Origin: a bacterium
GTDB taxonomy: Bacteria; Spirochaetota; Spirochaetia; Treponematales; Rectinemataceae
Reading direction: 5' to 3'
Length of the DNA stretch: 37,592 nt
NCBI GenBank assembly: GCA_021779995.1
Contig: JAJXZP010000278.1
Span: forward strand, 1-37,592
Shown here one piece after another: positions 1,462-31,572 of this stretch. Each line of letters opens with the position of its first letter. The first letter of the stretch is position 1. Made by a program: the position numbers and the translations under genes. The notes beneath the pieces are model-generated. The model was not told the DNA's origin and did no database searches. It saw only the letters and a program-made list of their open reading frames with translations.

Positions 1462-1612
1462 CGCCGCGAATGCCGCGGGCGCTCCGGCGGAATGATTCAG
1501 GCGCTCAGGCCGCAGCCCGCGGGCGCACCGGCGGAATGCTTCGGGCGCTCAAACTGAAGCCCTTGGGCGCTGCGCGAATGCCGCGGGCGCTCCGCCGGAA
1601 GGCCCGGGCGCT
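1462..1612. repeat. 22-nt degenerate tandem array, 7 copies
   Basis: The core GGGCGCT (variants AGGCGCT and GGGCGCA) recurs at 1477, 1499, 1521, 1543, 1565, 1585 and 1606. Spacings are 22, 22, 22, 22, 20 and 21 nt. Between cores the units share CCGGCGGAATGC-like sequence. The array fills the gap between the 1153-residue gene and the hutI promoter. The spacing is not a multiple of three and the stretch includes indels, so it is not a coding relic of either neighbour. Confidence 0.85.
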
Positions 1613-1630
1613 TCTCCGGTCCCCGAGCCG

Positions 1631-4600
1631 CTACCTCCCCGCGAAGAGCTCGTCCAGGCCGATGCTGCCGTTGATGCGCTCGATGTACGAGCTCTGCCTG
1701 AGAGCCGTGAGGCGCTCCTGGGCGCGACCGAGCTCGGCCTGGGCGCGGCGGCTCGAGACTGATCCGGCTATGGCGCGCTCGGCGAGGAAGGAGCGCAGGT
1801 ACTCGGTCGAGCGCTCGACGTAGCCGATCTCGCGGTCGCGGTAGCGCTCGAGCCGCTCGCGGTACCAGTCCGAGCCCAGCACGTAGCCGCGGTCGAAGAG
1901 CCGCCGGATCTCGGGATCGTGCACGCCCTTCCCCTCGAAGCTGCCCTCCGCCATGATGTGGAGGATGGCGCGCAAGGGCGGTATGGCCGCGTCGGCCGAG
2001 CCGTCCTCGATATAGTCACGCGCCGAGCGGGCCTGGGCCTCGACTATGTTGGCGACCCCGTCGGCGAAGTCCTCCAGGGACTGGAGCTCGGGCCGCAGCA
2101 TGTCCTCGCTGAACACGGCCGTGGGCGTGTCGAAGATCCTGCCCAGGAAGTGGGCGGCGAAGAGAGGCGTTATGCGCCATCCGAGCCGGCTCGCCGGGTG
2201 GAGCTTGCCGTCCAGCTCGAAGTCCTCGACCCGCTCCAGGTAGCCCTCGCGCTTCAGGAACTCGGGGTCGCGCTCGTCGGGGCCCATCCGCGCCCAGAGC
2301 TCGGGCATGAGCAGGGAGATGTCGTGGTCGACCTTGTAGGCGCGGCCGATGTGGCCCGCCGCCGAGGAGAAGCCGCCGCAGTCGGTGAGGATGAAGGCCA
2401 GGAGGGCGTTGCCGAGGTCGGTCGTGGGCACGAGGCAGTTGAAGGGCCCCTTGGTGAGGGCGCCTTCGCTGCCCGCGCCCGTGGTCGAGGGGCTCTTCCC
2501 GGTGAGCGAGCAGACGAAGTCCATGAAGAGCTCGGGCAGGTCCTGGTAGTGGATCGGGCCGTAGACCGCGAGGGGGCGGATGCCGGCCTGGGGATCGGCG
2601 GGGTTGTTGCGCCGTCCGGGTAGGACGGCCCCGACGGGGTGCAGGAGGAGGTGGTCGACGCTCACGCGCCGGTACAGGCGGGGGCCCAGGTCGGCGAGAT
2701 AGCGCGAGAGGGGATGCACGAGGCTGGGGTCGAGCTGGAGGTAGCGCGGATTCTTCGAGGGCGCGCCGTCGACCATGCGCGGCCGGTCCGAGGCGACGAA
2801 CCAGTCGTAGCTCTCGTCGTGCGCGGTCTCGACGACGAAATTGCGCATGGGCTCGGAGTACTCGGAGAGGCTCACGATCTTCTCGGCCATGGTCACGGCC
2901 TCGGCGCGCGGCAGGGGCTCGAAGTTGGAGATGAAGTTGTCGCGGCCGGACATGTCGAGCTCGGCCTGCTTGTCGTAGCCGCGGTGGATCGCGTCGTCGG
3001 GCCTCTGGAAGAAGCGGGCTTCGACGTTGACGCAGAACTTCACGCTATCGTGCTGGTCGACCCAGGCGGGCAGGCCCTGGAGCTTGAGGGCCGGGGCGAC
3101 GACGCTGGCGGTGATGTCGTCTTCCCACTGGATCTTCGCGGCGGGCATGAAGTCCTGCCGCAGCTTGAAGGTCCGGCGCATGCCCGTGTGGTCGCTGCCG
3201 ACGCGGAGGTAGGAGCCCTGCACCGGCCGCCCCTCGAACTTGAAGATGTTGCCCGTGGTGCCGTTCACCGCGTCCACCGAGAAATGCGACTCCCAGTCCG
3301 TTCCCCAGTCGGGGCGGTAGAAGCGCTTGACGAAGAATGCCAGGGCCTTGACCCGCTCGGGTATGGAGCGCAGCCAGGCGTTGTAGTCGTCGTTGTAGAG
3401 CGGGGAGGGCGAAAGCAGCTTGATGACCGAGCCGAGGGACCTTTGGCCCGAAAGGATCGAACGGTTGTCGGGCTCGGCCGGGCCGAGGCCGTCCTTGAAG
3501 CGGCTCGCGTAGTCGCGCTCGATGATGGACTTCACCGCCGCGATGTCCGAAACGTAGTCCGCGATCGTGAGGGGCGAGTAGGAGACCGCGTCGCTGATGG
3601 GCTTGGCGATCTCGGACTTGCCGCCGCCGGATACCGTGCAGGGCTTGTGGCACAGCAGCCCCTCGGCCGAGGTGCCCACGAGGCGCCAGGCCCCCGAGGC
3701 GGCGTGCCGCTCCATGTGGACGCGGTAGCCCGTGGGATGGACGTACACCTCGCTGGGCAGGATGCGGAGGCTGTGCTGCACGCCGGCCCAGGTCCAGCGG
3801 GCGGTCTGGTCCTCCAGCGAGATCACCGCGTCCTCGGGCAGGTAGACGATGTTCGGGAAGGTCTTGTCGACCGCGTAGCCCTCGGGTCTGGCCTCGATCC
3901 GGTCCTTCATGAGCTCGATCACGCCGTCGAGACTGTGCCCTCGGGAGCGCAGGTTGGTGTCGGGCACGAAACGGGTGCCGAGGTTGTAGGAGGGGAAGAC
4001 CAGGGCGCCGCCGGCGTGCTCCTCCTCGGCCAGCCCCAGGAGGTTGGCGGAGTAGGATATCTGCGCCTTGACTTCCTTCTTCGAGTAGCCGAAGTAATTG
4101 TCGGCTATGATCGAGACGATGACGCCGCGCTCGTCTCGGGCGCTGATCTTGAAGGGCTTGCCCCCGTTGTAGAGCTCGCCCGGCTCCTTCCAGGCCATGC
4201 CGTCGCGCCTCTGGCGCTCGGTGGCCTCCTCCCAGCGGGGAAGCCCGAGTTCCTTCTTGGTCATCCTGGTGAGGTGGGTGGCGAGGATGATGCAGCCGGT
4301 CGTGCCGGTCCAGCCCAGGGGGGCGAGGGCGGCGTCGTTCTCCGGGACGAAGGGGTCGCCCGAGTTGCCGAATACCGACTCGATGAAATCGAGATTGGCG
4401 GCCAGCGAGGCCGGCGCGAAGAAGCGCAGCTCCATCGAGCGCTCCTCGCAGAAACCCGTGACGGCCGGCCTGACCACCGGCCGCAGGAGCAGCGAGAGGA
4501 AGGTCCGCGCCGGCCGCCCGGCGTGGGCCGCGAAGGGCAGCTCCAGGAGCTCGGGCGGAGGGTTGAGGGCGGCGATGAGGAGCCGGGCGAAGGCCAGGCG

Positions 4601-5092
4601 CGGCACCGCCCTCTTGTCGAGGGGCACGGGCAGGCCGTCCTCGGCGATGTGGAACACGCCCTCGGTGGTGCGCCGGTCGCTGGCGGGATTGTGCAGGACC
4701 CCGTTGCGGATCCGGTACGAGGTGAGGGTGGAGGAGGCGTAGCGCTGCTCGTCGGGGCAGAGCGAGAGCTCGCGGGCCATGCCGTAGCGGTCGAGCACGA
4801 GGGTATTGGAAGGCAGCCGCGGCAGGGGCGAGATGCCGATGCCCGCGAGGTAGGAGTCCAGGAAGTCCTGGATGCGCCGGTCGGCGGGCGCGAGATAGCC
4901 GGCGAGCAGGCGGTCCTTCTCGCGGAAGTTTTCGAGCATGTCGCTGGCCAGGGTGACGAACTCCGTCCCTTCCTTCAGGTGGATGGGGAGTCCGAGATTG
5001 GCGAGCTTGATGTTGATATACGAAATGAGGCGCAGCCGCTCCTCGGGGTCGCGGCGGTCGAGACGCAGGCCGAAGTCGCGCTTCACGGACAT
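1631..5092 (-). CDS. 1153-residue protein of unknown function
   Basis: I do not recognise the family. The frame is a single long one with ordinary codon use. It starts at ATG 5092, preceded by GGGAGG at good spacing, so it is a real gene. No signal peptide or membrane helix is apparent, so it should be cytoplasmic. The sequence is not low in complexity: aromatic, Asn- and Asp-rich segments run throughout, as in a folded multi-domain enzyme or structural protein. Segments that look conserved by composition include GWTGTTGCIILATHLTRMTK (about residues 265-285), IADNYFGYSKKEVKAQISY, TVSGGGKSEIAKP (about 485-497, Lys 492) and TGKSPSTTGAGSEGALTKGP in the last third. The GGGKS stretch resembles a P-loop but lacks the first glycine. 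The C-terminal 110 residues are charged and helical. It sits between the sensor kinase and hutI; a palindromic operator-like site lies about 90 nt upstream. Confidence 0.85.
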   Translation of the reverse strand: MSVKRDFGLRLDRRDPEERLRLISYINIKLANLGLPIHLKEGTEFVTLASDMLENFREKDRLLAGYLAPADRRIQDFLDSYLAGIGISPLPRLPSNTLVLDRYGMARELSLCPDEQRYASSTLTSYRIRNGVLHNPASDRRTTEGVFHIAEDGLPVPLDKRAVPRLAFARLLIAALNPPPELLELPFAAHAGRPARTFLSLLLRPVVRPAVTGFCEERSMELRFFAPASLAANLDFIESVFGNSGDPFVPENDAALAPLGWTGTTGCIILATHLTRMTKKELGLPRWEEATERQRRDGMAWKEPGELYNGGKPFKISARDERGVIVSIIADNYFGYSKKEVKAQISYSANLLGLAEEEHAGGALVFPSYNLGTRFVPDTNLRSRGHSLDGVIELMKDRIEARPEGYAVDKTFPNIVYLPEDAVISLEDQTARWTWAGVQHSLRILPSEVYVHPTGYRVHMERHAASGAWRLVGTSAEGLLCHKPCTVSGGGKSEIAKPISDAVSYSPLTIADYVSDIAAVKSIIERDYASRFKDGLGPAEPDNRSILSGQRSLGSVIKLLSPSPLYNDDYNAWLRSIPERVKALAFFVKRFYRPDWGTDWESHFSVDAVNGTTGNIFKFEGRPVQGSYLRVGSDHTGMRRTFKLRQDFMPAAKIQWEDDITASVVAPALKLQGLPAWVDQHDSVKFCVNVEARFFQRPDDAIHRGYDKQAELDMSGRDNFISNFEPLPRAEAVTMAEKIVSLSEYSEPMRNFVVETAHDESYDWFVASDRPRMVDGAPSKNPRYLQLDPSLVHPLSRYLADLGPRLYRRVSVDHLLLHPVGAVLPGRRNNPADPQAGIRPLAVYGPIHYQDLPELFMDFVCSLTGKSPSTTGAGSEGALTKGPFNCLVPTTDLGNALLAFILTDCGGFSSAAGHIGRAYKVDHDISLLMPELWARMGPDERDPEFLKREGYLERVEDFELDGKLHPASRLGWRITPLFAAHFLGRIFDTPTAVFSEDMLRPELQSLEDFADGVANIVEAQARSARDYIEDGSADAAIPPLRAILHIMAEGSFEGKGVHDPEIRRLFDRGYVLGSDWYRERLERYRDREIGYVERSTEYLRSFLAERAIAGSVSSRRAQAELGRAQERLTALRQSSYIERINGSIGLDELFAGR

Positions 5093-5180
5093 AGCATAAC
5101 CTCCCGCACGGCTGGATCTGCCGGGCGCACGTTACTCCGGATAATAATCGGGAAGAGGCCGTACGGCTAGTCCGGGAACC

Positions 5181-5205
5181 GTGACATAAAATAAAATAAT
5201 GTCAC
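5181..5205. promoter_or_regulatory. perfect inverted repeat, operator-like
   Basis: GTGACAT (5181-5187) and ATGTCAC (5199-5205) are perfect inverted repeats around an 11-nt spacer made only of A and T. This is the only AT-rich patch for kilobases. It lies in the gap upstream of the 1153-residue gene, about 90 nt before its start, and is well placed for a dimeric transcription factor. I could not assign a regulator family. Confidence 0.6.
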
Positions 5206-5224
5206 GAACTGCGCGAAATGGAGA

Positions 5225-5255
5225 GCGGCGCCGGTTCGCCCCGCAGGGGCGCCGC
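5225..5255 (-). terminator. GC hairpin after the sensor kinase
   Basis: GCGGCGCC (5225-5232) pairs with GGCGCCGC (5248-5255). An alternative nested stem, CGCCCC-GCA-GGGGCG, covers 5237-5251. It begins about 30 nt past the kinase stop. There is no T-tract; termination is inferred from position and strength. Confidence 0.35.
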
Positions 5256-5283
5256 GGCCCGGGCCCCGCCTTCCGTCGCCGGG

Positions 5284-6921: not shown

Positions 6922-6971
6922 AAACCCTCCCGCCGGCAGGGCGGCATTTTAAATTGGACTCCCGCGCGAAA

Positions 6972-7047
6972 CGTGTCGGCCGGCTCGCGCGAGCCGGCCG
7001 GCTCGCGTGTGTCGGCCGCGGCGCGCGAGCCGACCGGAATCGGCTCG
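6972..7047. repeat. 18-nt tandem array with 24-bp palindrome
   Basis: Units built on CGGCCGGCTCG begin near 6972, 6988, 7006 and 7024; the middle ones are exactly 18 nt. Two alternating versions (CGTGTGT... and CGCGAGC...) are partly complementary. The junction at 6977-7000 is therefore a perfect 24-bp palindrome, with left half CGGCCGGCTCGC. The array starts right after the hutU stop and may fold as its transcript end. Confidence 0.8.
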
Positions 7048-7051
7048 TGCC

Positions 7052-9067: not shown

Positions 9068-9157
9068 GTCGGTCACCTCCTATGGATGAATCGCTGACGG
9101 GCAGATGGCGATCGGGCCTTCATGCCGGCGCCGGCCGCCGGCCGCTCGGCGATCGCG

Positions 9158-10995: not shown

Positions 10996-11595
10996 CTAGA
11001 GTTTCAGCACGGAGAGCACCGCCGTCCCGAAGGTGTCGCCGTCGATCTTCCCCTCGAGATAGGCCTTGACGAGGGCCTTGATCTCGGCGGGAAAGGCGGC
11101 CCAGTACTCGTCCTGCCAGCGGGGATTGGATTCCCAGAGCTCGCGCTGGCGGCTCGGGGGCATCCGGTCCTCGGAGTAGGCGACGAAGGAGCGCACCATG
11201 CCGATCAGGGCCTCGGGCGGCAGGGCCGAGGCGGAGGCGGCTGCCTTCTCGGCCGCCTCTTTGGCGAGGGCCGCGCTCGATCCGGGCTCGGGGACGTATT
11301 CGTCGAGGAGGGTGGCCAGCTGCTCCTCGCTGACCTCCGGGGCGTTCTTCCGGATGATGTCGGCGACGAAGCCCTTCATGGTGGCGCGGACCGAGTCCAT
11401 CGTCGCCCCGACGTTCGTCTGGAGCTCGTTCGCCATGCGCCTCGCCATAGCCCCGGGCCCCTCGCCGCCCAAGCTCGCGAAGGCGGTCTTGTCCCTGACC
11501 CTGCGCTCGCAGGCCTTGCGGATGACCTCGAACTCCGAGTCGTCGGCCTTGTTGAGGATGAAGTCGAGGATCGCTTCGAGTTGGGCGCGCGGCAT
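10996..11595 (-). CDS. 199-residue helical protein, unknown function
   Basis: Not recognised. It is predicted to be all-helical, charged and cytoplasmic, with no signal peptide or membrane segment. It starts MPRAQLEAILDFILNKADD, contains a Cys-Glu-Arg-Arg segment (RKACERRVRDK), an Ala-rich middle (about residues 105-125) and ends FGTAVLSVLKL. The frame runs open much further upstream across the repeat array, but the start at ATG 11595 is supported by a promoter ending 7 nt before it. There is no convincing Shine-Dalgarno, so it is likely translated from a leaderless message. It is divergent from the EamA gene and 206 nt upstream of hutH; a role in histidine use is not supported by anything in its sequence. 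Confidence 0.75.
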   Translation of the reverse strand: MPRAQLEAILDFILNKADDSEFEVIRKACERRVRDKTAFASLGGEGPGAMARRMANELQTNVGATMDSVRATMKGFVADIIRKNAPEVSEEQLATLLDEYVPEPGSSAALAKEAAEKAAASASALPPEALIGMVRSFVAYSEDRMPPSRQRELWESNPRWQDEYWAAFPAEIKALVKAYLEGKIDGDTFGTAVLSVLKL

Positions 11596-11631: not shown

Positions 11632-11674
11632 CGGGGCGCGGGCCGAGGATTCGTCGCCGGAGGGCCCGTGGGCC

Positions 11675-11801
11675 GAGGGGTCCGCCGCGCGAGGGGTCCG
11701 CCGCGCCGAGGGCGCTCGGGGCGCGGCCGCGTCGTTCGCCGCATCTCTGCCGTGCCGAGGGCGCTCGGGTGCGGCCGCGTCGTTCGCTGCATCTCTGCCG
11801 C
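11675..11801. repeat. 16-nt and 48-nt tandem duplications
   Basis: GAGGGGTCCGCCGCGC occurs twice in perfect tandem at 11675-11690 and 11691-11706. Next to it a 49-nt unit (11705-11753) is followed directly by a 48-nt copy (11754-11801). They differ by one indel and about two substitutions. Each large unit carries GCGTCGTTCGC, at 11729 and 11777. The arrays fill the gap between the divergent 199-residue gene and the EamA gene. Confidence 0.85.
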
Positions 11802-11835
11802 GCATCGTCCGCCCTAGACTCGCCGCGAACGATGC
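11802..11835. promoter_or_regulatory. inverted repeat around the EamA promoter region
   Basis: GCATCGTCCGC (11802-11812) and GCGAACGATGC (11825-11835) are inverted repeats with 10 of 11 matches. A TAGACT box lies between them (11815-11820) and could be a -10 element. The half-site resembles the GCGTCGTTCGC in each 48-nt repeat upstream, giving four related sites in about 107 bp. This is a candidate operator cluster for the EamA gene. Confidence 0.45.
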
Positions 11836-11842: not shown

Positions 11843-12733
11843 ATGGGCGGCGTGAACAAAAAACAAGCGGCCCCCCTGTACGGCCTGTTCGTGGCCCTGA
11901 TCTGGGGTCTGTCCTTCCTCAGCATAAAGACGGCCGTGGCGGTGCTGCCCCCCATGACGCTCGCCGCCTCCCGCTTCGTCATCGCCTGCGCGGTGCTGCC
12001 CCTCATCGCCCTCGCGGCGAGAGAGCGCATGCGGGTCGCCTGGCGCGACGTCCCCGTGCTCGCCGCGGGCGGCCTCGTCGGCGTGACCCTCTATTTCCTG
12101 GGCGAGAACAACGGCGTTCGCCTCCTCTCGGCCTCCGAGTCCTCGCTCATCATCGGAGCCATCCCGGTCCTCACCGTGCTCACCGAGCGGGCCTTCCTGA
12201 AGACGAAGCTCGGAGCGCGGGCCTACCTGGGCGCCCTGGCCTCCTTCGCGGGGGTCGCGCTCATCGTCGCCCGGTCGGCGGGCGCCGCTTCCTCTCCCGT
12301 CGGCTACCTGTACATGGGCGTCGCGGCCCTGTCCTGGGTGGCCTACTCCTTCCTCACCCGCCCGGTGTCGGGGCGCTACGGCCGCATCACCGTCACGTTT
12401 TGGCAGAGCCTCTTCGGGCTCGCGGGCTGCATTCCCTTCGCCCTGACCGAGCACGCCGCCTGGCGCGCCCCGGGGACGGAGGTCATCCTCAATGTGGTGT
12501 ATTTGGGCGTGCTGTGCTCGGCGGTGGGCTACTGGCTCTACGTGGAGACCCTCGACACGCTCGGCGCCGGAAGGGCGAGCGTCTTCATCAACCTCATCCC
12601 GGTCGTCTCGGTGATCGGAGCTTTTTTCATCCTGGGGGAGCGCCTGAGCGGCCTCCAGCTCCTGGGCGGCGCCGTGGCCATCGCGGGCGTCTACCTCGCC
12701 ACGATGCAGCCGCGGCGCAGCCGGTCGAGCTAG
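11843..12733 (+). CDS. EamA/DMT-superfamily transporter
   Basis: The protein is 296 residues with ten hydrophobic helices in two EamA halves, the standard size and layout of the drug/metabolite transporter superfamily. The N-terminal half opens LYGLFVALIWGLSFLSIK, with the usual Trp-Gly-x-x-Phe pattern. The second half ends with the typical GERLSGLQLLGGAVAIAGVYL motif. The substrate cannot be told from sequence; relatives export amino acids, metabolites or drugs. The start is ambiguous. ATG 11843 is preceded only by GGCTAGG, whereas GTG 11852 would use GGATGGGCGG as its ribosome site and give MNKKQ. It is divergent from the 199-residue gene and converges with the deacetylase gene. Confidence 0.9.
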   Translation: MGGVNKKQAAPLYGLFVALIWGLSFLSIKTAVAVLPPMTLAASRFVIACAVLPLIALAARERMRVAWRDVPVLAAGGLVGVTLYFLGENNGVRLLSASESSLIIGAIPVLTVLTERAFLKTKLGARAYLGALASFAGVALIVARSAGAASSPVGYLYMGVAALSWVAYSFLTRPVSGRYGRITVTFWQSLFGLAGCIPFALTEHAAWRAPGTEVILNVVYLGVLCSAVGYWLYVETLDTLGAGRASVFINLIPVVSVIGAFFILGERLSGLQLLGGAVAIAGVYLATMQPRRSRSS

Positions 12734-12780: not shown

Positions 12781-12848
12781 CGCCGGCGTCGAGCCTACGC
12801 GCCGGAACCGCTGCGCAGCGGCGCTCCTGCCGCGCCGGCGTCGAACCT
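12781..12848. terminator. convergent gap with palindrome and duplicated 16-mer
   Basis: Between the convergent EamA and deacetylase genes, CCGCTGC-GCAGCGG forms a perfect 14-bp palindrome (12808-12821). The 16-mer CGCCGGCGTCGAGCCT (12781) recurs with one change 52 nt later (12833-12848), reaching the deacetylase stop. The palindrome may serve both transcripts as an end signal, but no T-tract is present. Confidence 0.35.
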
Positions 12849-13654
12849 CACGGCCGAGTCAGGGATATCTCGCGCTGGTCGCTCTCCCCGCGGGAAGAGC
12901 GGGCCAGGCCCTGGCGGGTGGCGAGGTACGAAAAAATCTGCGCGCGGTTCCAGTGATAGACGATGGTCCGGGGCACGTTGAAATGGTCGAGCCTCGGGTC
13001 CGAGAAATCGACGCTCTTTATCTTGTCCCCCGCGGTGAAGGCCCAGTCGTAGCCCGCCTCGCGCAGGGCCTGGGACACGGGAGGGCAGCCGAAGCCGAAG
13101 GGATAGGCGAAGAGCCGCGGGCGTTCGCCGACGAGCTTCCTGAGGGCGGGAGCGGGACGCGTCACTTCCATCATGACCTTCGCGGGGTCGCGCTCGTAGG
13201 CCCTGGCGGTCATGTATTCGTGGAAAAAACCGTGGGCGCCGATCCCGCAGCCGTCTCCGGCGAGTTCTTTCAGCTGCTCGGGCGTGAGCGCGTGCCTGCT
13301 GCGCCCGATCGGGAAGGGATAGATGAAGAGCTCGGGCTTGATGCCCCGCTCCTCGAAGACGCGTTTGTAGGCCTCGTAGTCCGAGCGGTTGCCGTCGTCG
13401 ATCGTGATGACCACGTTCGCCGTGCCTTCGATGCGGCCGGCGATGGCGTCGTCCAGGCTGACGAAGGTGTAGCCCAGGGCGCGGATGCGGTCGAGCTGGG
13501 CGCCCATGTCGGCCAGGCTGTAGTCGAGCGAGGAGCTGCCGCTTCCGAGGAAGCTGTGGTAGTCGAGTATGATCACCTCGCCGCCGGCCCAGAGCCGGAT
13601 GCCGGCGGCGCAGGCGAAAAGGGCGATCGTCAGGGAGATGATGCTGCGGCGCAT
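12848..13654 (-). CDS. secreted polysaccharide deacetylase-like protein
   Basis: The protein is 268 residues with an N-terminal signal peptide (about 1-23, hydrophobic core SLTIALFACAAGI, cleavage after LWA). The NodB-type fold is shown by ILDYHSF (30-35), the catalytic motif TIDDG (Asp 86 and Asp 87), the metal motif HGFFH (His 141, His 145) and FAYPFGFG in the usual Arg/Tyr-Pro region. Family members remove N- or O-acetyl groups from peptidoglycan, chitin or other cell-surface glycans. The exact substrate is unknown. It should act outside the cytoplasmic membrane. There is no Shine-Dalgarno before ATG 13654, and the promoter lies so close that the message is probably leaderless. The tail after about residue 250 is basic and unlike the domain. 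Confidence 0.85.
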   Translation of the reverse strand: MRRSIISLTIALFACAAGIRLWAGGEVIILDYHSFLGSGSSSLDYSLADMGAQLDRIRALGYTFVSLDDAIAGRIEGTANVVITIDDGNRSDYEAYKRVFEERGIKPELFIYPFPIGRSRHALTPEQLKELAGDGCGIGAHGFFHEYMTARAYERDPAKVMMEVTRPAPALRKLVGERPRLFAYPFGFGCPPVSQALREAGYDWAFTAGDKIKSVDFSDPRLDHFNVPRTIVYHWNRAQIFSYLATRQGLARSSRGESDQREISLTRP

Positions 13655-13692: not shown

Positions 13693-13757
13693 GCGACAGC
13701 TCATTAAATAACTGTAATAGAACAAGTTGAATACTCCTGGCCCGGCGGCGCCGCGCT

Positions 13758-13915
13758 CGCCGGGAGCTCGCGCGGCCGCCCGGAGACGCTCGGGCGCGAG
13801 ATCGTCGGGAGTGCGCGCAGCCGCCTGGAGACCGCCTGGAGACGCTCGGGCGCGCGATCGCCGGGAGTGCGCGCGGCCGCCCGGAGATCGCCCGGAGGCC
13901 GCCCTGGAGACTGCC
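13758..13915. repeat. three long tandem units of 45-57 nt
   Basis: The 315-nt gap between the transglutaminase-like and deacetylase genes (13655-13969) holds this array. Units open CG(C/T)CGGGAG at 13758, 13803 and 13859. Each continues with GCGCG(G/C)-(G/A)GCCGCC-(C/T)GGAGA. The second unit is 11 nt longer through an internal duplication of CCGCCTGGAGA. Reading frames through it are Arg/Ala-rich and unrelated to known proteins. No gene is seen in the gap. Confidence 0.8.
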
Positions 13916-13969
13916 CGGCGCGGGATTTGGCCGAAGCTACGCAGGAGCAGGGCTCGCCCACGGCGCGGC

Positions 13970-15328
13970 TCAGCGCCACTCGAGCTCCACACCCAGCCAT
14001 TTCGAGAAATCGGCCTGCGAGGCGGCGATCATGCCCAGGCCCACCTTGGCCGTCGTCTCGGCCACGAGGTAGTTCCTGCCCTTCCAGGGGAACCTCTGGC
14101 CGCCGCCCGGAACGTCGACGCCGAGCATGGCGTGCGAGTACTCCCGCGAGAGCATGAGCACGCAGTGGATGCCGAGCCGCTCGAGGATGATGGCCATGAC
14201 CATGGCCCGCGAGTCGCAGTCGCCGCGGCGCTCGAAGGCGGCGTGCAGCGGGGTCACGAAGTCGATGCCTTTCTGATCGCGCTGGTAGGTGAAGCCCTGG
14301 ACCCAGGCCAGGACCCTCCGCGCGCACTCGGTGGGGTCGTCGAGCGGCAGAGTCCGGGCGAACTCCAGGCTGAGCCGGTCCAGGCGCGAGGCGGACTCGC
14401 GGAAGATCATGCGGTAGAAGCGGGCCCATGCGTCCTCCCAGAGTTCCTGGCTCTTGGCGTAGCTTTCGAGGACGTGATACTCGCGCTCGGCGGTGTCCAT
14501 CTCCTGGGCCGCGGCCTTGTCGCTCCAGGGCAGATCGACGCTGGTCCCGTCGGGGAGGATGGCCGCCTTGGTCTTCGTCTCCGTGGGCGGCCAGGGCAGG
14601 ACGAACTGGCTCAGGGGGCCCGGATGGCGGAGGGCCTCGGCATCGATGGAAAACGAGTCGAGACAGGAGAGGATGAGGTCGGAGTAGGCCTCGAAGCGCG
14701 CCGTGTCGGCGAAGGCGAGGAGGGCGAAGCTGGGCTCGGGCGGCGGCGGGGCGAGGCTGGGCTGGGAGCCCTGAGACGAGGCGGCGGAGGACGAGGGCGC
14801 TGCCGAAGGGTCGCCGGTGGAGGAGGGCGCGGCCGCCGCCGGAGTCGTCGCCGGGGCGCCGGTTCCGGAGCCGGAGGGCGCGGTCGGAACCGTCGCCGCC
14901 GGAGCGGCCATCGCCGCCGGCGGGAGCGCCCGGCCCAGGATGAAGAGGGCGTAGCCCTTCTTCGCGGCGCCGTTCAGGGTGAAGGCCAGCTCGGTGAGGA
15001 CGGCATGCCGACCTTCGTAGATGAAGGACTCCGAGTCGCCCGTGGAGCCGAGCCTGGTCGCCACCTCTGCCGCCATGGCCTCGGCCGAAATGTACCGCCC
15101 CGATTGGTAGACGCGGATGTCGAACTCCATGCCGTTGTAGGGATCGGAGTAGGAAAAGCGGGTCTTGCCGTCGCCCTCGCCGGGAACGAAGCCTGCGGGC
15201 ATCTCGACGAAGAAGCCGAAGTCCGAGCCGAGCTGCTTCGCGAAGGCGTCGCGCGAGGCGAAGAGCAGCAGAATGACGAGGACGAGGAGGGCTGCGGGGC
15301 TGCGCCAGAGGGCGCTGATCTGGGTCAT
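13970..15328 (-). CDS. exported transglutaminase-like protein
   Basis: The protein is 452 residues. A signal or anchor segment occupies about 10-30 (LLVLVILLLFASRDAFA). An N-terminal domain (31-150) of beta-rich sequence is followed by a Pro/Ala/Ser/Thr linker (about 152-210), then a C-terminal domain. The last 110 residues carry the transglutaminase-like triad: Cys 371 in RRGDCDSRAM, His 399 in YSHAML and an acidic residue in YLVAETT. Such domains act as cysteine proteases or transferases on periplasmic or surface substrates; the substrate here is unknown. The start at ATG 15328 has AAGGAG at ideal spacing. It is the only gene upstream of the deacetylase on this strand, but a long repeat array and a separate promoter intervene. 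Confidence 0.8.
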   Translation of the reverse strand: MTQISALWRSPAALLVLVILLLFASRDAFAKQLGSDFGFFVEMPAGFVPGEGDGKTRFSYSDPYNGMEFDIRVYQSGRYISAEAMAAEVATRLGSTGDSESFIYEGRHAVLTELAFTLNGAAKKGYALFILGRALPPAAMAAPAATVPTAPSGSGTGAPATTPAAAAPSSTGDPSAAPSSSAASSQGSQPSLAPPPPEPSFALLAFADTARFEAYSDLILSCLDSFSIDAEALRHPGPLSQFVLPWPPTETKTKAAILPDGTSVDLPWSDKAAAQEMDTAEREYHVLESYAKSQELWEDAWARFYRMIFRESASRLDRLSLEFARTLPLDDPTECARRVLAWVQGFTYQRDQKGIDFVTPLHAAFERRGDCDSRAMVMAIILERLGIHCVLMLSREYSHAMLGVDVPGGGQRFPWKGRNYLVAETTAKVGLGMIAASQADFSKWLGVELEWR

Positions 15329-16929: not shown

Positions 16930-16974
16930 GCCGCAGGCGGGTTCGCCGAAGGCGGGTTTGCCGAAGGCGGGTTT
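16930..16974. repeat. 15-nt tandem array, 3 copies
   Basis: GCCGCAGGCGGGTTC, GCCGAAGGCGGGTTT and GCCGAAGGCGGGTTT follow each other without a gap (16930, 16945, 16960). The last two are identical, and a fragment of a fourth starts at 16975. The array begins two bases past the fabH stop and ends just before the next promoter. Confidence 0.9.
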
Positions 16975-16995
16975 GCCGCGGGTCCCCTGCGGCGC

Positions 16996-17032: not shown

Positions 17033-17893
17033 ATGATTCCGGCCCTGTATCAGGATGAGGACATTCTCGTGCTCGACAAGCCCGCGGGCCTCGCCTCGCA
17101 GCCGGGCGCCGACGTGCGGCTTTCGCTCGTCGAGGCGGTCGAGCGCGACTACGGCTTTCGGCCTTTTCTCGTGCACCGCCTCGACAAGGAGACCGCCGGC
17201 TGCATCATCGTGGCGCGCAACGCCCGGGCGGCGGCGCGCTGGACTTCCCTTGTCGAGTCGCGCGAGCTGCGCAAGGTCTATCGGGCGGTCGTGCGGGGCG
17301 CGCCCTCCGCGGACAGGGGGATCCTCGACGAGGCCCTGCCGCTGCGCGGGGGAAGCCGTCCGGCCCGGACCCACTGGCGCCTGCTCGGCAGCTTCGGCTC
17401 CGAAGGCGCGGGCCCGGGGGGCGCGGCCCCGCGCGAGACCGCAGCGGCCCCGTACGAGAGCGCAGCCGCCCCGCGCGGCGAGCCGCAGCCCCAAAACGGC
17501 CGCCCGCAGCCCCAAAACGGCCAGGTGGAGTCCGGGCGCGGCCACGCGGACCCCCTGCGCGGCCAGCCGCAGTCCGCAAACGGCCGCCCGCAGCCCCAAG
17601 AAGGCCGCCCGCGGCCGGCCTTCTCCTACCTGGAACTCGAGCTGGACACGGGCCGCATGCATCAGATCAGGCTCCACCTGGCGGGCGCGGGCCTGCCCAT
17701 CCTCGGCGACGACCGCCACGGCGACTTCGCCGTGAACAAGCGCCTCAGGAAGGAAGCGGGGCTCAAGCGGCTTCTTCTCCTGGCCTACTCGCTGCGCCTG
17801 CCGGGCGGCCCCCTCCTGCGCGCCGCCGTGCCGCCGCATTTCCTCGAGTTCCTGTCGCTGTACCCGGACGCGCCCGACCCGGAGCTGCCGTGA
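17033..17893 (+). CDS. RluA-family RNA pseudouridine synthase with repeat insertion
   Basis: Isomerises specific uridines in rRNA or tRNA to pseudouridine. The catalytic motif is VHRLDKETAG (His 48-Arg-Leu-Asp 51). ILVLDKPAGL (11-20) and GRMHQIRLHL (207-216) are the other family signatures. The length is 286 residues. The fold is interrupted at about 121-196, between the strand THWRLLGSF and the strand FSYLELELDTGR, by a Gly/Pro/Gln/Asn-rich insertion. The insertion is encoded by 21-nt repeats, so it adds whole seven-residue units and keeps the frame. The break falls in a surface loop of known family structures, so the enzyme is probably active. The target uridine is not predictable. The stop overlaps the next gene by four bases, and the message is probably leaderless. 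Confidence 0.9.
   Translation: MIPALYQDEDILVLDKPAGLASQPGADVRLSLVEAVERDYGFRPFLVHRLDKETAGCIIVARNARAAARWTSLVESRELRKVYRAVVRGAPSADRGILDEALPLRGGSRPARTHWRLLGSFGSEGAGPGGAAPRETAAAPYESAAAPRGEPQPQNGRPQPQNGQVESGRGHADPLRGQPQSANGRPQPQEGRPRPAFSYLELELDTGRMHQIRLHLAGAGLPILGDDRHGDFAVNKRLRKEAGLKRLLLLAYSLRLPGGPLLRAAVPPHFLEFLSLYPDAPDPELP
17423..17608 (+). repeat. in-frame 21-nt repeats inside the pseudouridine synthase
   Basis: Residues 131-150 are three units AAPRETA, AAPYESA, AAPRGE. Residues 151-192 are six units in a shifted register: PQPQNGR, PQPQNGQ, VESGRGH, ADPLRGQ, PQSANGR, PQPQEGR. At DNA level the second array ends each 21-nt unit with CGGCC plus two bases, even in the two units whose amino acids have diverged. 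The DNA unit, not the protein, therefore appears to have been duplicated. Confidence 0.85.
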
Positions 17894-22896: not shown

Positions 22897-22898
22897 AA

Positions 22899-22995: not shown

Positions 22996-23020
22996 CCGCG
23001 GCCCTTCAGTCCGCGGCCCT
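22996..23020. repeat. 15-nt repeat, 2 copies
   Basis: CCGCGGCCCT occurs at 22996 and 23011, a period of 15 nt, immediately downstream of the hsp20 stop. Confidence 0.5.
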
Positions 23021-23487: not shown

Positions 23488-23597
23488 ACTGATACCCTCC
23501 ATATAGGTTCTCGTTCGTCCCGATCCGGCATCGCCTGCCGCAACGCGGCCGTGCGCTCGCCAGGGGCGGAGCCCTTTTCGGCGCTCACCTTATATAA

Positions 23598-23614
23598 AGC
23601 AGGATTCGTGCCAA
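23598..23614 (-). promoter_or_regulatory. sigma-54-like (-24/-12) promoter of hsp20
   Basis: On the minus strand TTGGCACG-N4-CTGCT matches the -24/-12 consensus (TGGCAC-N5-TTGCW) except one base at the -12 element. The invariant GG and GC are at the correct spacing. Transcription would start near 23587, about 100 nt before ATG 23487. In E. coli the small heat-shock gene ibpB also uses a sigma-54 promoter, which gives some support. No enhancer-binding protein is encoded nearby. Confidence 0.45.
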
Positions 23615-23960
23615 ATCCCCCTACGGGATCATGGATAATTCGAAATGTGAGGCCAGGTCGGCACTTTTACGCCACAACTCGTTTGGGGTGTCGGGTGCGA
23701 TGGACGGTCGATATTACTAATTATATAAAGTGTAAATAAATAGGACGAGTTGGCGAAATCCGGCATTCCCCGCGTTTCCTTCGGCAGGCTCGGTACGCCA
23801 ATGTCATATCAAAAAACCCGGGCGTGCGTTTCGGCGGCTTTCGAGGTGGTGGAGCTACTGGATGAGTTTGCCTGAAGCATCTTCTGGTCTATGGGTGTCG
23901 CGACTGTAGGGAAGGAAGACAAGGCGTATCATTTAGAGTCAGTTATATGTATCAAAAATA
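23615..23960. other. gene-free stretch with AT-rich patch
   Basis: No convincing gene is seen. Base composition drops sharply against both flanks. An AT-rich run lies at 23711-23742. CGCCACAACTCGT (23670-23682) and ACGAGTTGGCG (23745-23755) form an inverted repeat with a small bulge around that run. Open frames here are short and lack ribosome sites. It may be the remnant of a transferred or mobile segment. Confidence 0.4.
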
Positions 23961-23966
23961 AACACA

Positions 23967-24080
23967 AACGCAAAGGGCGCGAAGAGGAAGCAGGAAACGA
24001 GGAAGGGAAGGGGTGTTTAGGCCTGCTCCTTCCAATCCATCTCCTTTTTTCTCCCTTTTCGCTCCGCGTCCTTTGCGGTT
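23967..24080. repeat. decayed long inverted repeat (palindromic element)
   Basis: AACGCAAAGGGCGCGAAGAGG (21 nt, 23967-23987) is complementary, with mismatches, to the stretch 24060-24080 (CGCGTCCTTTGCGGTT core). Core arms match at about 14 of 16. The interior is purine-rich on the left and pyrimidine-rich on the right (23990-24060), continuing the pairing loosely. This resembles dispersed CGCAAAGG/CCTTTGCG palindromic repeats that I have seen described in many bacterial genomes; that identification is from memory. Confidence 0.55.
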
Positions 24081-24141
24081 CAGTCCCTCATCTTTGCGAT
24101 CTTCGGGTTTCGATCTCCCTCATTCAAGGTGAAGCGCCGGC

Positions 24142-26748: not shown

Positions 26749-26786
26749 GCCTGCCTCCGTCGCACAACATTCTACTCCATTTTCCG

Positions 26787-26815
26787 TTGACGAGTCGCCG
26801 GGACCATGCTATACC
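26787..26815 (+). promoter_or_regulatory. sigma-70 promoter of the ROK gene
   Basis: TTGACG (26787-26792), 17-nt spacer, TATACC (26810-26815). The predicted start near 26822 lies inside the left half of the operator, so a bound repressor would block it directly. Confidence 0.65.
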
Positions 26816-26836
26816 ACCTTTGGTTGGGATATTCAA
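26808..26836 (-). promoter_or_regulatory. sigma-70 promoter of the beta-mannosidase gene
   Basis: On the minus strand TTGAAT (26836-26831), 17-nt spacer, TATAGC (26813-26808). Its -10 box shares the TATA at 26810-26813 with the opposite promoter. Its -35 box overlaps the right operator half, so one repressor site could control both directions. Confidence 0.6.
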
Positions 26837-26840
26837 CCAA
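26820..26840. promoter_or_regulatory. probable ROK operator
   Basis: TTGGTTG (26820-26826) and CAACCAA (26834-26840) are perfect inverted repeats around 7 nt. The position covers the start point of the ROK promoter and the -35 box of the beta-mannosidase promoter. The neighbouring ROK regulator with its N-terminal helix-turn-helix is the natural candidate to bind it (inference). Confidence 0.7.
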
Positions 26841-26867
26841 CTAAGATATCGATACGACGAGGTTCCT

Positions 26868-28031
26868 ATGCCGAGGGGTGCTAGTTCCGGGCCGCTGACC
26901 GCTACCCGGATAGTTCGGACGATCTGGCTCAATCCCCGCATCTCGAGGATCGGCATAGCCGAGCACCTGGGACTCGACAAGTCGACGGTCACGAACCAGG
27001 TCTCGCATCTCATCGAGCTCGGCATAATAGAAGAGGTGTCCGAGGGGAACGCGGGCGTGCGCGGCGGGCGCCGGCCCATCCACCTCGCGATCAGACGGGG
27101 ATACGGCCGGGTCATCGGCATCGAGATCCAGGTCGAGTCCTATGTCGCCCTCGCCGTCGACCTCGCGGGCTAGGTGCTGGGCGAGCTGCGCGGCGAGACC
27201 AAGGTCGAGGCCGCGAGCTTCTCCGAGACGGTGCTCGACATCATCGCCCTGGCGCGGAAGAAGCTCTGTCCGAAGGGATCGAGGCTCCTGGGTGTCGGGG
27301 TGGGCACGGGCGGCCTTGTCGACCGCAAGAAGGGCCGGCTCCGCTACTCGGTGCCGCTCGGCATCTCCGAGCCCATAGACTTCGAGCGGGAAGTCGCCTC
27401 CCGGCTGGAGGTGCCGTGCCTCATCGAGAACGACGCGAACTGCTGCGCCTGGGGCGAGCTGGCCTTCAACAAGGACGAGGCCCTGCGAGATTTCCTCTTC
27501 GCCCTGGTCGAATACCGCAAGGACCCCATTTCCCTGGGCCAATACGGCGGCCTGGGCGTCGGCTTCGGGGTGTCCTTCGGCGGCAAGGTCTACTCGGGGG
27601 TGCACGGCAACGCGGGCGAGTTCCGCTCGGCCTTCTGCGAAGGCCCCGGCTCCCTGCAGTTCTCGCTGCGACGCGAGGATCTCTGCCGCATCGACCAGGA
27701 CCGGGCTTTGCTCGCCGCCGCCGCGGACGAGCTGGCGCGCAATGCCGCCATGCTCATCAACACGATGGACTTCGACCGTGTCTATATAGGAGGCGACATC
27801 GAGGCGCTCGACATCGATTTCCCCGCCATGCTGAGGCGGCGCCTGCAGGACAACTGGATGTATCCCTTCCCCAAGGACGTCGAGATCCGCTACTCGAGCC
27901 TGGGCGGCAAGGCCGTCGCCTACGGGGCGGCCGGCATGGTCCTGCACGGCCTCATTTCCGAGCGCATGCTGCCGGGGCTCGCGGCCGAGGTCGAAGAGGT
28001 CGCGCCGTCCTGGGTGTCCGACGTTCAATGA
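26868..28031 (+). pseudogene. ROK-family transcriptional repressor interrupted by in-frame TAG
   Basis: Read through, the gene encodes about 387 residues. A winged helix-turn-helix comes first (SRIGIAEHLGLDKSTVTNQVSHL, about residues 25-47). The ROK sugar-kinase-like domain follows, from about residue 85 (VIGIEIQVESYVALAVDLAG), with VGVGTGGLVD, IENDANCCAWGEL and GVGFGVSFGGKVYSGVHGNAGEF. Codon 102 (27171-27173) is TAG, in the same frame on both sides, where the family has a short polar residue between DLAG and VLGELRGE. No frameshift is involved. A GTG follows the TAG directly (27174), so restart is conceivable, but it would separate the DNA-binding domain from the ligand domain inside a beta-hairpin. 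The usual CxCGxxGC zinc motif after GNAGE is absent. It could be a point-mutated pseudogene, a readthrough gene or a sequencing error. The start at ATG 26868 has GAGG upstream. Confidence 0.85.
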
Positions 28032-28101
28032 GCATTCGTCCCCGAAGAGGGATGAAATAGGCGGGATGAGCGCGGCTGCGCGCCCGCATAGGAGGTATAG
28101 G

Positions 28102-29406
28102 ATGAAACGAATGATGATCGCCGTCATGATGATCGCCGTCATCGCCGCAGGGGTCGTCGCCCAGGAGAAGGTGACGCTCAACGTGTTCAACTACCAGCAG
28201 GCCGACCAGGCCGGTTACCAGCAGGACGTCCAGATCTGGAAGGATTTCCAGACGCAGAACCCGGACATCACCCTCAACATGGAAGTCCTGTTCAACGATC
28301 CCTATCACCAGAAGCTGGAGGCCTACGCCGCGTCCGGCACCCTGCCGGACGTGTTCTACCTGTGGCCGGGCTCGCGGAGCGCCGTCATCCACACGCAGCA
28401 CCTCGCCAAGGATCTCACCAAGCTGCTCGGCAAGGAGTACCTCGAGCGCTTCTCCGCCGCCGCCGTCAATCCCAAGAACCAGCTCGGCGGCTATCTGGCC
28501 GAGCTGCCCCAGTCCTTCACCTACACCTCGGTCATGTACGTCAACAAGAAGCTCCTCGCTGATAACGGCTTCGGCCTGCCCAAGACCTTCGCCGACCTCC
28601 GGAGGATGGTGCCAAGGCTCAAGGCCAAGGGCCTCAATGTCGTCATGCTCCCGGACAAGGACGGCTGGCCCATGCAGTCCTGCCTCTTCTCCACGCTGGT
28701 GGGCCGATTCGGCGGCGACGCCTACATCGACGCCATCCTCGCGGGCAAGGCGAAATTCACGGACAAGCCCTTCGTCGAGGCGCTCAAGGTCGTCGACGAG
28801 CTGTACAGGGACGGGATCATCGCGCGCAGCGACAACCAAGTCGGCTATGGCGAGGGCGCCGGCGCCTTCGCCTCCGGCAAGGCCGCCATCTACATCGACG
28901 GCGACTGGCGCGTCGGTGCGTACATCACCGACAAGGCCTCCGGCAAGGCTCTGATCTCCCCCGAGGCCCAGAAGAACGACTTCGTCCTCCTGCCCTTCGT
29001 GTCGATCCCCGGCGAGAAGTACCACGGCGTGGTCTCCGCGGTCGCGGGCACCGGCTGGGCGATCTCCGGCTCGCTCCCCGAGGGCTCGGCCAAGCTGGCG
29101 GCCGCCGTCCGCCTGATCAAGTACCTCTATTCGCCCGAAGTCCAGTCCATCCGCTTCGCGACCGGCGCCTATGTCCCGACCCTCAAAGGCGTCAAGGCCG
29201 ACGTGGAGCCGCTCATGGCCAAGGTCCCGACTTTCTACGCCGACAATCCGGACACCTGCTACGTGCTCGACGGCGTGCTGGATCCCTCGATCATCACCGT
29301 GCTCAACAACGGCCTCATCGATATAGGGCTCGGCACCGCCACGCCCCAGAAGGTGGCGACCGACGTCCAGAAGGCTTTTGAGAGCTGGAAGGCCTCCCAG
29401 AAGTAG
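28102..29406 (+). CDS. ABC-transporter sugar-binding protein (family 1)
   Basis: Captures an oligosaccharide outside the membrane and hands it to the two permeases that follow. The length is 434 residues. The signal peptide is MKRMMIAVMMIAVIAAGVVA, with cleavage before QEK and no lipobox Cys, so it is soluble or held by other means. The mature start KVTLNVFNYQQ, then LPDVFYLWPGS and a later GKAAIYIDGDWRVGAY are typical of MsmE/MalE-like family 1 proteins. The ATG at 28102 follows AGGAGG at 6-7 nt. A small stem-loop (28061-28087) precedes the ribosome site. It lies 70 nt after the ROK gene and, by context, probably binds a mannose- or GlcNAc-containing oligosaccharide. Confidence 0.9.
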   Translation: MKRMMIAVMMIAVIAAGVVAQEKVTLNVFNYQQADQAGYQQDVQIWKDFQTQNPDITLNMEVLFNDPYHQKLEAYAASGTLPDVFYLWPGSRSAVIHTQHLAKDLTKLLGKEYLERFSAAAVNPKNQLGGYLAELPQSFTYTSVMYVNKKLLADNGFGLPKTFADLRRMVPRLKAKGLNVVMLPDKDGWPMQSCLFSTLVGRFGGDAYIDAILAGKAKFTDKPFVEALKVVDELYRDGIIARSDNQVGYGEGAGAFASGKAAIYIDGDWRVGAYITDKASGKALISPEAQKNDFVLLPFVSIPGEKYHGVVSAVAGTGWAISGSLPEGSAKLAAAVRLIKYLYSPEVQSIRFATGAYVPTLKGVKADVEPLMAKVPTFYADNPDTCYVLDGVLDPSIITVLNNGLIDIGLGTATPQKVATDVQKAFESWKASQK

Positions 29407-29413
29407 CCTGATC

Positions 29414-29456
29414 CGCGGCCGCCCGGAACGGAGCGCATTCCTTTCGGGCGGCCGCG
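29414..29456 (+). other. intercistronic hairpin after the binding-protein gene
   Basis: CGCGGCCGCCCG (29414-29425) pairs perfectly with CGGGCGGCCGCG (29445-29456), and the stem can be extended by three weaker pairs. It sits 8 nt past the binding-protein stop and before the permease genes. Such hairpins are known, for example after malE, to protect the upstream message and reduce downstream expression, giving more binding protein than permease. Confidence 0.65.
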
Positions 29457-29510
29457 CCTGCGGTCGCGGCCCTCCGCTCGGCCCATTCCCCACCCCGGTC
29501 CGGAGGTTCT

Positions 29511-30635
29511 ATGTCTCGTGCGAAGCGCATCGACCGCGAAGAGGGTCGAGCCTATTGGACGATGGTCCTGCCCGCCTTCGCGGTCTACCTGCTCGTGATG
29601 GCCTTTCCCATCGTCCTCTCCATAATCCTGTCGGTATCCAACTACAATGGGGGCAAGATGTTCGGCGGGCCCAAATGGGGCTTCGCCGGCTTCGGACAGT
29701 ACGCCCGGACGGTCGCCGACCCCCTGTTCTGGAACGCGCTCAAGAACAACGCCTACATCGTCCTCGTTTCCGTGTTCGGACAGCTGCCCCTCGGCTTCAT
29801 CTTCGCCTACATCATCTACCGGCGCATCGTGAAGTGGCCCGGCTTCTGGCAGGGCGTCCTCTACCTGCCCAACATCATATCGATCATCGTCGTCGGCCTG
29901 CTCTGGCAGACGGTCTTCTCGCCGAGCGGTCCGATCGCCGAGTTCATGAACTCGATCTACCACCGCGCCTTCGAGGCCAAGCTCTCGGAGCTGTTCGCCG
30001 CCGCCGGAGGATTCAACGTCACGGACGGACTGGTCAAGAGAATCCTGGACCTCGCCGGCCCCTCGGGCGCGGCGATGTTCGCCAATCCCGTCCCCGACCT
30101 CAAGGACTTCATCCTCTCCTATCCGCAGGGACACCTGGGCCAGGTGATCAACGATCTGGCCAACCTCTTCGCCCAGAAGTGGCGACCCGCTTTCCTGACC
30201 AGGCCCGACCAGGCCATGCTGCCTGTGCTCTTCGTGATCCTCTGGATGTACACGGGTATGTACCTCATCCTCTTCCTCGCGAACATGCAGAAGATCGACG
30301 TCCAGGTGATCGAATCGGCGCGCATCGACGGCGCCAACGAGGCGCAGGTCATGCGCCATATCATCCTGCCCGCCCTTTCCGGAACCATGGTCAACGCGGC
30401 GATCCTGGCGATCTCCGGCTCGCTGTCGAGCTTCGCCCTCATCTTCGCCATGACGGGAGGCGGACCTTCGCACGTGACCGAGATCCTCTCGATATACATG
30501 TATAACAAGGCCTTCCTCGGGAGCCCCAACTTCCCGCTCGCGAATGCCATAGCCCTGATCATGGTAGCCGTCAGCTTCCTTCTCATCGCGCTCACCAAGG
30601 CGCTCGAGAAACGCTACGGCGGGAAGGAGGAGTGA
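29511..30635 (+). CDS. ABC sugar permease, MsmF/MalF type, with extra loop
   Basis: One of two membrane subunits of the sugar importer. The length is 374 residues with about six membrane helices and the cytoplasmic coupling motif ESARIDGANEAQVMRHIILPAL (EAA loop, near residues 262-283), which contacts the ATPase. Typical MsmF-type permeases have about 290-310 residues. The excess is a segment of about 80 residues (145-230) between SPSGPIAEFMNSIYHRAF and LPVLFVILW, which is amphipathic and not repeated. ATG 29511 follows GGAGG. The next permease starts within a few bases of its stop. Confidence 0.9.
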   Translation: MSRAKRIDREEGRAYWTMVLPAFAVYLLVMAFPIVLSIILSVSNYNGGKMFGGPKWGFAGFGQYARTVADPLFWNALKNNAYIVLVSVFGQLPLGFIFAYIIYRRIVKWPGFWQGVLYLPNIISIIVVGLLWQTVFSPSGPIAEFMNSIYHRAFEAKLSELFAAAGGFNVTDGLVKRILDLAGPSGAAMFANPVPDLKDFILSYPQGHLGQVINDLANLFAQKWRPAFLTRPDQAMLPVLFVILWMYTGMYLILFLANMQKIDVQVIESARIDGANEAQVMRHIILPALSGTMVNAAILAISGSLSSFALIFAMTGGGPSHVTEILSIYMYNKAFLGSPNFPLANAIALIMVAVSFLLIALTKALEKRYGGKEE

Positions 30636-30640
30636 AGAGC

Positions 30641-31501
30641 ATGCGCGAGCATCTCACGACGACCGCGCTCGGACGGGCCGCGGGGGCGGCGGCCAAGATC
30701 CTGGCCTACGCCGTCATGATCCTTTTCACCGTCCTGACCCTCTACCCCATCTTCTGGCTCGTCATGAACTCCTTCAAGACCACGAGGGAGTTCCAGGTGA
30801 GCCAGCTGTCCTTCCCCAAATCACCGACCCTCGATAACTTCGCCGGTGCCTGGAAGCTCGGCGATTTCGGCAAGCTCTTCCCCAATTCGATCATCTACAC
30901 CGTGGGGGCGACTGTCGGCATAATCCTGCTCTCGGTCCTCGCCGGTTTCGCCTTCGCCAAGATCAAGTCGAGGGCGACGAAGCCGATCTACAACAGCTTC
31001 GTGATCGGCATCCTGCTCACCATCCAGTCGCTCATGATCCCGCTCTTCCTCGAGGTGAACCTCCTGGGCATCTACGACACGCGCCTGGCCGTCCTCCTCG
31101 TCTACATCGGCGCCGGCCTGCCGATCGGCATCTACCTCGCGACGGAGTTCATCAAGGGCATCCCCAACGCCCTCGTCGAATCCGCCAGGATCGACGGGGC
31201 TGGATACTTCCGCGTCTTCTGGTCGATAATCCTCCCTATGTCGGTGCCCGTGGCGACGACGCTGGCGATACTCAACGTCTCGAACATCTGGAACGAGTTC
31301 GCTCTCATAAACATCCTTGTGTCCAGCACCGACCTTAAATCGCTGCCGCTGGGCATCTACAAGTTCTCCGGCTCGCTGTCGAGCGACTACGGCAAGCAGT
31401 TCGCCGCGCTGACCATCGGGATGGCTCCCATGCTGCTTTTCTATGTGGTCTTCCGGAAGCAGATCACCAAGGGAGTCGCGGCCGGGGCGGTCAAAGGCTG
31501 A
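30641..31501 (+). CDS. ABC sugar permease, MsmG/MalG type
   Basis: The second membrane subunit of the importer, 286 residues and about six helices. The EAA coupling motif is ESARIDGAGYFRVFWSIILP (about residues 181-200). The C-terminal segment FVVFRKQITKGVAAGAVKG is typical of this subunit. I place the start at ATG 30641, eight bases from the GGAGGAG. The in-frame GTG at 30632 overlaps the previous stop but is only a base or so from the ribosome site. No ATP-binding subunit is encoded in the cluster. A shared MsmK-type ATPase encoded elsewhere is likely, as in other systems of this family. Confidence 0.92.
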   Translation: MREHLTTTALGRAAGAAAKILAYAVMILFTVLTLYPIFWLVMNSFKTTREFQVSQLSFPKSPTLDNFAGAWKLGDFGKLFPNSIIYTVGATVGIILLSVLAGFAFAKIKSRATKPIYNSFVIGILLTIQSLMIPLFLEVNLLGIYDTRLAVLLVYIGAGLPIGIYLATEFIKGIPNALVESARIDGAGYFRVFWSIILPMSVPVATTLAILNVSNIWNEFALINILVSSTDLKSLPLGIYKFSGSLSSDYGKQFAALTIGMAPMLLFYVVFRKQITKGVAAGAVKG

Positions 31502-31520
31502 GCTCCGCCGGCGCGGCGCG

Positions 31521-31572
31521 GCGGCGACGGTTCGGCGGCGACGGTTCCGCGGCGACGGCCCTGCGGCGACGG
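31521..31572. repeat. 14-nt tandem array, 4 copies
   Basis: GCGGCGACGG occurs at 31521, 31535, 31549 and 31563, exactly every 14 nt; the linkers are TTCG, TTCC, CCCT-like. It fills the space between the permease stop and the -10-like box of the GH1 gene, so any -35 element would lie within it. Confidence 0.9.

Follow-up and report, generated by a model that had tools for sequence, protein, structure and literature searches.

The window analysed in this study, a stretch of 37,592 nt (contig C48:1-37592 of genome G000), carries a number of short tandem arrays, each with a repeat unit of its own, and this raises the question of whether such arrays are parts of one shared element or the separate products of duplication at each site. 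The original prediction listed eight arrays, placed nearly all of them between genes and favoured repeated local duplication over the spread of one element; behind them it saw either a genome-wide peculiarity of slippage or repair, or a functional mRNA-end or nucleoid-binding layer. The best named matches for the urocanase of the window come from metagenome-derived genomes of spirochaetes. G000 is a genome of 3.45 Mb in 334 contigs, with 88.6% completeness and 2.5% contamination, and was compared with 29 other genomes of its family, in which set it is the sole member of its own genus. Arrays were called by TRF, with a minimum score of 30 in the window and a score of at least 50 for the counts of gaps against shuffled DNA. 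The genome sample of G000 consisted of 39 loci and 578 kb (17% of the genome), of which 66.0 kb was intergenic and 512 kb coding; loci made up entirely of N (two from each of G000 and G001) were dropped from the densities, gap comparisons and folding. The window had been selected for its arrays, and many contigs of the second batch had been named by earlier searches; densities are therefore also given by batch.

Within the window, seven of the eight predicted arrays were recovered by TRF, and the pair close to the end of the Hsp20 gene was not (Table 1). According to the gene calls, six of these seven arrays are intergenic, as had been stated, but the seventh, at 17423-17616, is intragenic and lies in a gene of the RluA family (PF00849). 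The copies within the window arrays are mostly imperfect, with best TRF rows of 61-94% matching. Scans of the window with Rfam (gathering scores) and for tRNA genes gave no matches, and a known structured RNA was rejected on the Rfam result. The 22-nt array lies 11 bp from the stop of its upstream gene, 1631-5092(-). This gene encodes a protein of 1153 residues adjoining the hut genes, which is conserved in relatives (68-76% identity) and for which neither Pfam nor NCBIfam yielded a match at E<=0.001.

Table 1. Tandem arrays of the window and associated features
Feature	Position	Strand	Evidence and location
22-nt array (TRF also 44 nt)	1468..1619		TRF; between uncharacterised gene 1631-5092(-) and hutI 118-1365(-)
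18-nt array, self-complementary	6977..7037		TRF; 14 bp past hutU stop
Adjoining 16-nt and 48-nt arrays	11672..11827		TRF; divergent gap, 10996-11595(-) / EamA gene 11843-12733(+)
45/56-nt and 11-nt arrays	13757..13918		TRF; transglutaminase-type gene 13970-15328(-) / polysaccharide deacetylase gene 12848-13654(-)
15-nt x3.3 array	16930..16978		TRF; begins right after fabH stop
21-nt array, ~9 units	17423..17616	+	TRF; within RluA-family gene
RluA-family pseudouridine synthase gene, array host	17033..17893	+	PF00849, E=6.8e-25
15-nt x2 pair by Hsp20 gene end, no array	22996..23020		Missing from TRF at score 30
14-nt x4-5 array	31505..31574		TRF; 3 bp past ABC permease stop, upstream of GH1 gene

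The comparison with shuffled DNA that the original prediction had called for came out in its favour. The 23 window gaps of at least 30 bp (4,069 bp) contain six arrays of score 50 or higher, whereas 100 dinucleotide shuffles gave 0.29 on average and never more than two. Similarly, 292 pieces of gap sequence from the genome sample yielded 39 arrays, against 0-3 in 20 order-3 Markov controls. In the whole sample, 45 arrays were found in 66.0 kb of intergenic DNA (0.68 per kb) and 96 arrays in 512 kb of coding DNA (0.187 per kb). The window is denser than the rest (six arrays in 4.1 kb, 1.47 per kb); without it, the intergenic density is 0.63 per kb (39 in 61.9 kb), made up of 15 arrays in 20.4 kb for the first batch (0.74 per kb) and 24 in 41.6 kb for the second (0.58 per kb). 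The array excess is a feature that reaches beyond the window contig, across the genome sample. In their make-up, that is, head-to-tail units of about 10-100 nt present beyond chance, these arrays are minisatellites. The highest copy number of the 45 intergenic arrays was observed at L013:1009-1177, where a 16-nt unit is repeated about 11 times, with 96% identity, in the gap separating two convergent genes.

Next to this abundance, the arrays have little in common. The periods of the 45 intergenic arrays range from 10 to 150 nt with no common value, which excludes constant-size tandem repeats of 20-21 or 52 nt. Sequence sharing between the arrays is slightly above controls at most: four pairs shared units at E<1e-3, against 0-3 pairs in 10 unit-permuted controls. 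When the eight predicted stretches were compared with the first 21 loci, three outside matches of 16-21 bases were detected. The whole-genome copy search covered one array, at 13740-13930, for which no second copy was found, the best other match having E=0.004 and 76% identity over 67 bases. A shared motif or dispersed mobile element was rejected, because the units are largely unrelated and this one array is single-copy genome-wide. CRISPR was rejected because the copies stand head to tail in TRF and are not spaced repeats.

To the same end point came the folding analysis, in which unit-permuted arrays on both strands and dinucleotide shuffles on the + strand were used as controls. Compared with the unit-permuted controls, the mean z of the 45 arrays was -0.08 on one strand and -0.05 on the other, with five and three arrays, respectively, below -2, and four and three above 2. 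Compared with the dinucleotide shuffles, the mean z was -0.53, and 8 of 45 arrays were below -2. A few single arrays folded much better than controls, namely L205:1874-2072 (z -6.3), L221:509-855 (z -3.2) and, in the window, 1468-1619 (z -2.5); for the array at 6977-7037, z was -2.9 on the + strand and -3.0 on the hutU strand. The array at L205:1874-2072 is a 77-nt repeat with copies 98% alike and strong hairpins, and ends approximately at the start of a tRNA-Gly gene (2060-2132). REP/BIME elements were rejected, as there is neither a unit common to many arrays nor a general folding excess. The claim that the arrays, unlike REP or CRISPR repeats, have no one unit or period in common is in line with the genome sample.

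The matching gaps of relatives, whose lengths were extrapolated from the ends of tblastn alignments, indicate how the arrays arose. The array-bearing gap between gene 1631-5092 and hutI is 265 bp here, against 11-29 bp in L024, L025, L032 and L033; L022 was excluded from this comparison, because about 1.6 kb of other sequence separates the two genes there. The divergent gap between gene 10996-11595 and the EamA gene is 247 bp here, against 68 bp (L033) and 91 bp (L026), and that between the transglutaminase-type and deacetylase genes is 315 bp, against 49 bp in L033. An array-bearing gap outside the window (L005) is likewise 247 bp, against 93 bp in a relative. For the array at 6977-7037, the hutU neighbour differs in the relatives checked, so there is no matching gap. 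In all four comparable cases, the array is missing from the relatives' gap. Altogether, 41 gaps with conserved neighbours were compared. The array-bearing ones, a small set of four of which three are in the window, are longer than in relatives by a median of 209 bp, with a median array of 154 bp; the median length of the 37 array-free gaps is 81 bp in G000 against 44 bp in relatives, with a median difference of 4 bp. On these comparable cases, the alignments suggest that the arrays are recent, local growth that followed the split from the relatives. Short array-free gaps in relatives, together with unrelated units, uphold the proposal of local duplication at each site in place of one spreading element.

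The internal structure of several arrays points in the same direction. Lags of more than one unit were observed at 6977-7037 (18 and 36 nt), 13757-13918 (45, 56 and 101 nt) and 17423-17616 (21, 84 and 105 nt). At 1468-1619, TRF gave periods of 22 and 44 nt, and in ungapped comparison lags of 22 and 44 nt were equally good, with a lag of 108 nt best. These multi-unit periods are consistent with more than one round of duplication.

Arrays inside genes provide a second record of the process. In the RluA-family gene, the 21-nt array adds approximately 70 in-frame residues, within about residues 124-196. The two halves of the protein match close together in 28 of 29 relatives (the exception being G001), and in the 11 best-matching relatives the insert is absent, the aligned halves lying no more than 9 nt apart, although short inserts may also hide inside the aligned halves. 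The comparison with L033 agrees with this spacing. In the remaining relatives the halves are spaced by up to 144 nt, and the site thus tolerates inserts of other lengths. Among arrays of the genome sample, the period is a multiple of 3 in 88 of 96 coding arrays, against 22 of 45 intergenic arrays, indicating that selection preserves the reading frame. The coding arrays of the sample did not increase toward the 3' ends of genes, and a mutational 3'-end bias is therefore not seen.

Taken together, the arrays are probably ordinary non-coding minisatellites that arose by local tandem duplication, each site separately, and on the best reading they are kept where selection tolerates them. At the comparable sites, they are local and restricted to one lineage, they expand the gaps in which they lie, and inside genes they are filtered for reading frame. 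With regard to the molecular step, we infer that GC-rich DNA would be duplicated in tandem at each site by replication slippage or template switching, to which unequal exchange may perhaps contribute; duplication would be repeated in more than one round, and the copies would then diverge by point mutation.

The alternative that best survives these data is a functional 3'-end layer, in which the arrays would act as terminators or in mRNA-end protection, with hairpin potential conserved and not sequence. We consider it unlikely. It draws on the position of the arrays: of the 24 in same-strand gaps, 18 are closer to the upstream stop and six to the downstream start (p=0.023), with median distances of 26.5 nt and 102 nt. 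Five of these 18 are in the window, and without the window the proportion becomes 13 of 19 (p=0.17); as significance is lost, the stop-side trend is weak. The ratio of stop side to start side was 6:1 in G001, 7:0 in Nonomuraea, 3:1 in Haloferax, 3:4 in G009 and 0:1 in G025. The simpler reading of this lean would be weaker selection near 3' ends, with selection removing arrays near promoters and ribosome sites and so lowering their survival there. A fold z below -2 was obtained for four arrays, of which two are window arrays, and since a few arrays thus fold far better than controls, single arrays may act as terminators or RNA hairpins. On the gene strand of the 24 same-strand arrays, two fall below -2, but the mean is -0.33, and the mean fold z is close to 0 on both strands, on which ground a common terminator or hairpin layer was rejected as a general property. 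In addition, arrays were detected not only in same-strand (24 of 175) and convergent gaps (7 of 34) but also in divergent gaps (5 of 62) and within genes, and the four comparable gaps of relatives contain none. Also in line with this alternative is the GC content of convergent gaps, 0.757 (14 gaps), against 0.678 for coding DNA in the first sample of G000. The same GC excess of convergent gaps was observed in G009 and slightly in Nonomuraea, and not in G025, G010 or Haloferax. With no common period, sequence or fold, with array-free gaps in relatives at all four comparable sites and with arrays inside genes, the suggested mRNA-end or nucleoid-binding layer finds no support as a general property, and the arrays appear, from their sequences, to carry no sign of a shared function.

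Still less likely is a repair or replication defect specific to the lineage, such as loss of mismatch repair or Ku-dependent end-joining duplications. To compare densities, nine of the 29 relatives were sampled, together with five outside records picked by GC content, including the actinomycete Nonomuraea, the haloarchaeon Haloferax, Paracoccus and two Deinococcus plasmids, with 6-42 kb of gaps per control. Intergenic arrays per kb were 0.10 in G025, 0.19 in G010, 0.14 in G011, 0.10 in G014, 0 in G004, 0.08 in G019, 0 in G028, 0.41 in G009 and 0.61 in G001, and, outside the family, 0.77 in Nonomuraea, 0.99 in Haloferax, 0 in Paracoccus, and 0 and 0.26 in the two Deinococcus plasmids. With the window excluded, G000 exceeds G025 6.5-fold in intergenic density (p=1.3e-5) and approximately 2-fold in coding density (0.196 vs 0.085 per kb), as would be expected of such a defect. 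However, G001, Nonomuraea and Haloferax are about equally dense, and the density of G000 was not detectably different from that of G001, G009, G010, G011, Nonomuraea, Haloferax and one Deinococcus plasmid. Both the MutS_I and MutL_C domains were detected in G000, and loss of MutS or MutL was rejected on this basis. Ku was not found in G000, an incomplete assembly in which absent genes prove little; the one positive genome of 30 is the array-poor G010. SbcD matched in 22 of 30 genomes, in G000 only partially, and was rejected as a driver of density, since its presence shows no pattern with density: the negative relatives include the array-poor G004 and the array-richer G009. None of MutS, MutL, Ku and SbcD explains the density of G000. 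The proposed genome-wide peculiarity is thus correct insofar as both batches are dense and far exceed G025, but not insofar as other genomes reach about the same density and MutS and MutL are present. We regard as possible, and tentatively so, that local tandem duplication proceeds at an elevated rate in this lineage, which would lengthen gaps and insert protein repeat loops, as in RluA; if this is true, the lineage and the array-poor G025 would form a natural comparison for minisatellite birth rates in GC-rich bacteria.

An artefact of assembly or binning is highly improbable: the metagenome assembly is fragmented, incomplete and slightly contaminated, and the best row is 100% matching in 7 of 45 intergenic arrays, but 44 of the 45 are shorter than 200 nt, most have imperfect copies, the coding arrays are largely in frame, and the complete circular record of Nonomuraea is similarly dense.

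Minisatellites from local tandem duplication, as preferred here, have counterparts in other prokaryotes. Subirana and Messeguer (2019, PMC6749651) describe, in Methanobrevibacter ruminantium and Clostridioides difficile, satellites that are unique and unrelated within one genome, as are the units in G000; those of M. ruminantium are scattered, and the authors judge at least half of them to be non-coding, those of C. difficile are clustered in two regions, and satellite birth is ascribed to DNA replication anomalies. G000 differs from these two in its GC-rich genome. The satellite rule of that paper (at least four copies, regular) would miss many G000 arrays. A rough imitation of it, by our own script and not the original program, detected 14 satellites in 578 kb, or about 24 per Mb, and 2.8 per Mb in G025; the highest bacterial value in Table 1 of PMC6749651 is 23.0. 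The Burkholderia satellites of the same paper are, like the G000 arrays, GC-rich, with short units and high density, but form families derived from 6-8-nt microsatellites, whereas the G000 units are largely unrelated. The Bacillus tandem repeats described in PMC8161180 also comprise many arrays of differing sequence, but have a constant size of 20-21 or 52 nt, unlike the periods of 10-150 nt in G000. The arrays of G000 belong to an already known kind of repeat, present at high density. In the open-licence literature, no report of such arrays in this spirochaete family was found. VNTR loci, whose copy number differs among strains, serve strain typing, for example in mycobacteria; like the G000 arrays, they are minisatellites and partly intergenic. 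At a few comparable sites, the present data show local birth, restriction to one lineage and reading-frame filtering of bacterial minisatellites, and array density varies more than 6-fold among members of one family.

Apart from the arrays, one further feature of the window was observed. In a ROK-type regulator gene at 26868-28031, the reading frame is interrupted by a TAG codon at 27171-27173; the front of the gene weakly matches NF047937, far under the cut-off, and its rear matches PF00480. Since TAG serves as stop codon in 150 of the 474 genes that were called in the sample, general read-through is unlikely, and the split may reflect a pseudogene or an error in the sequence.
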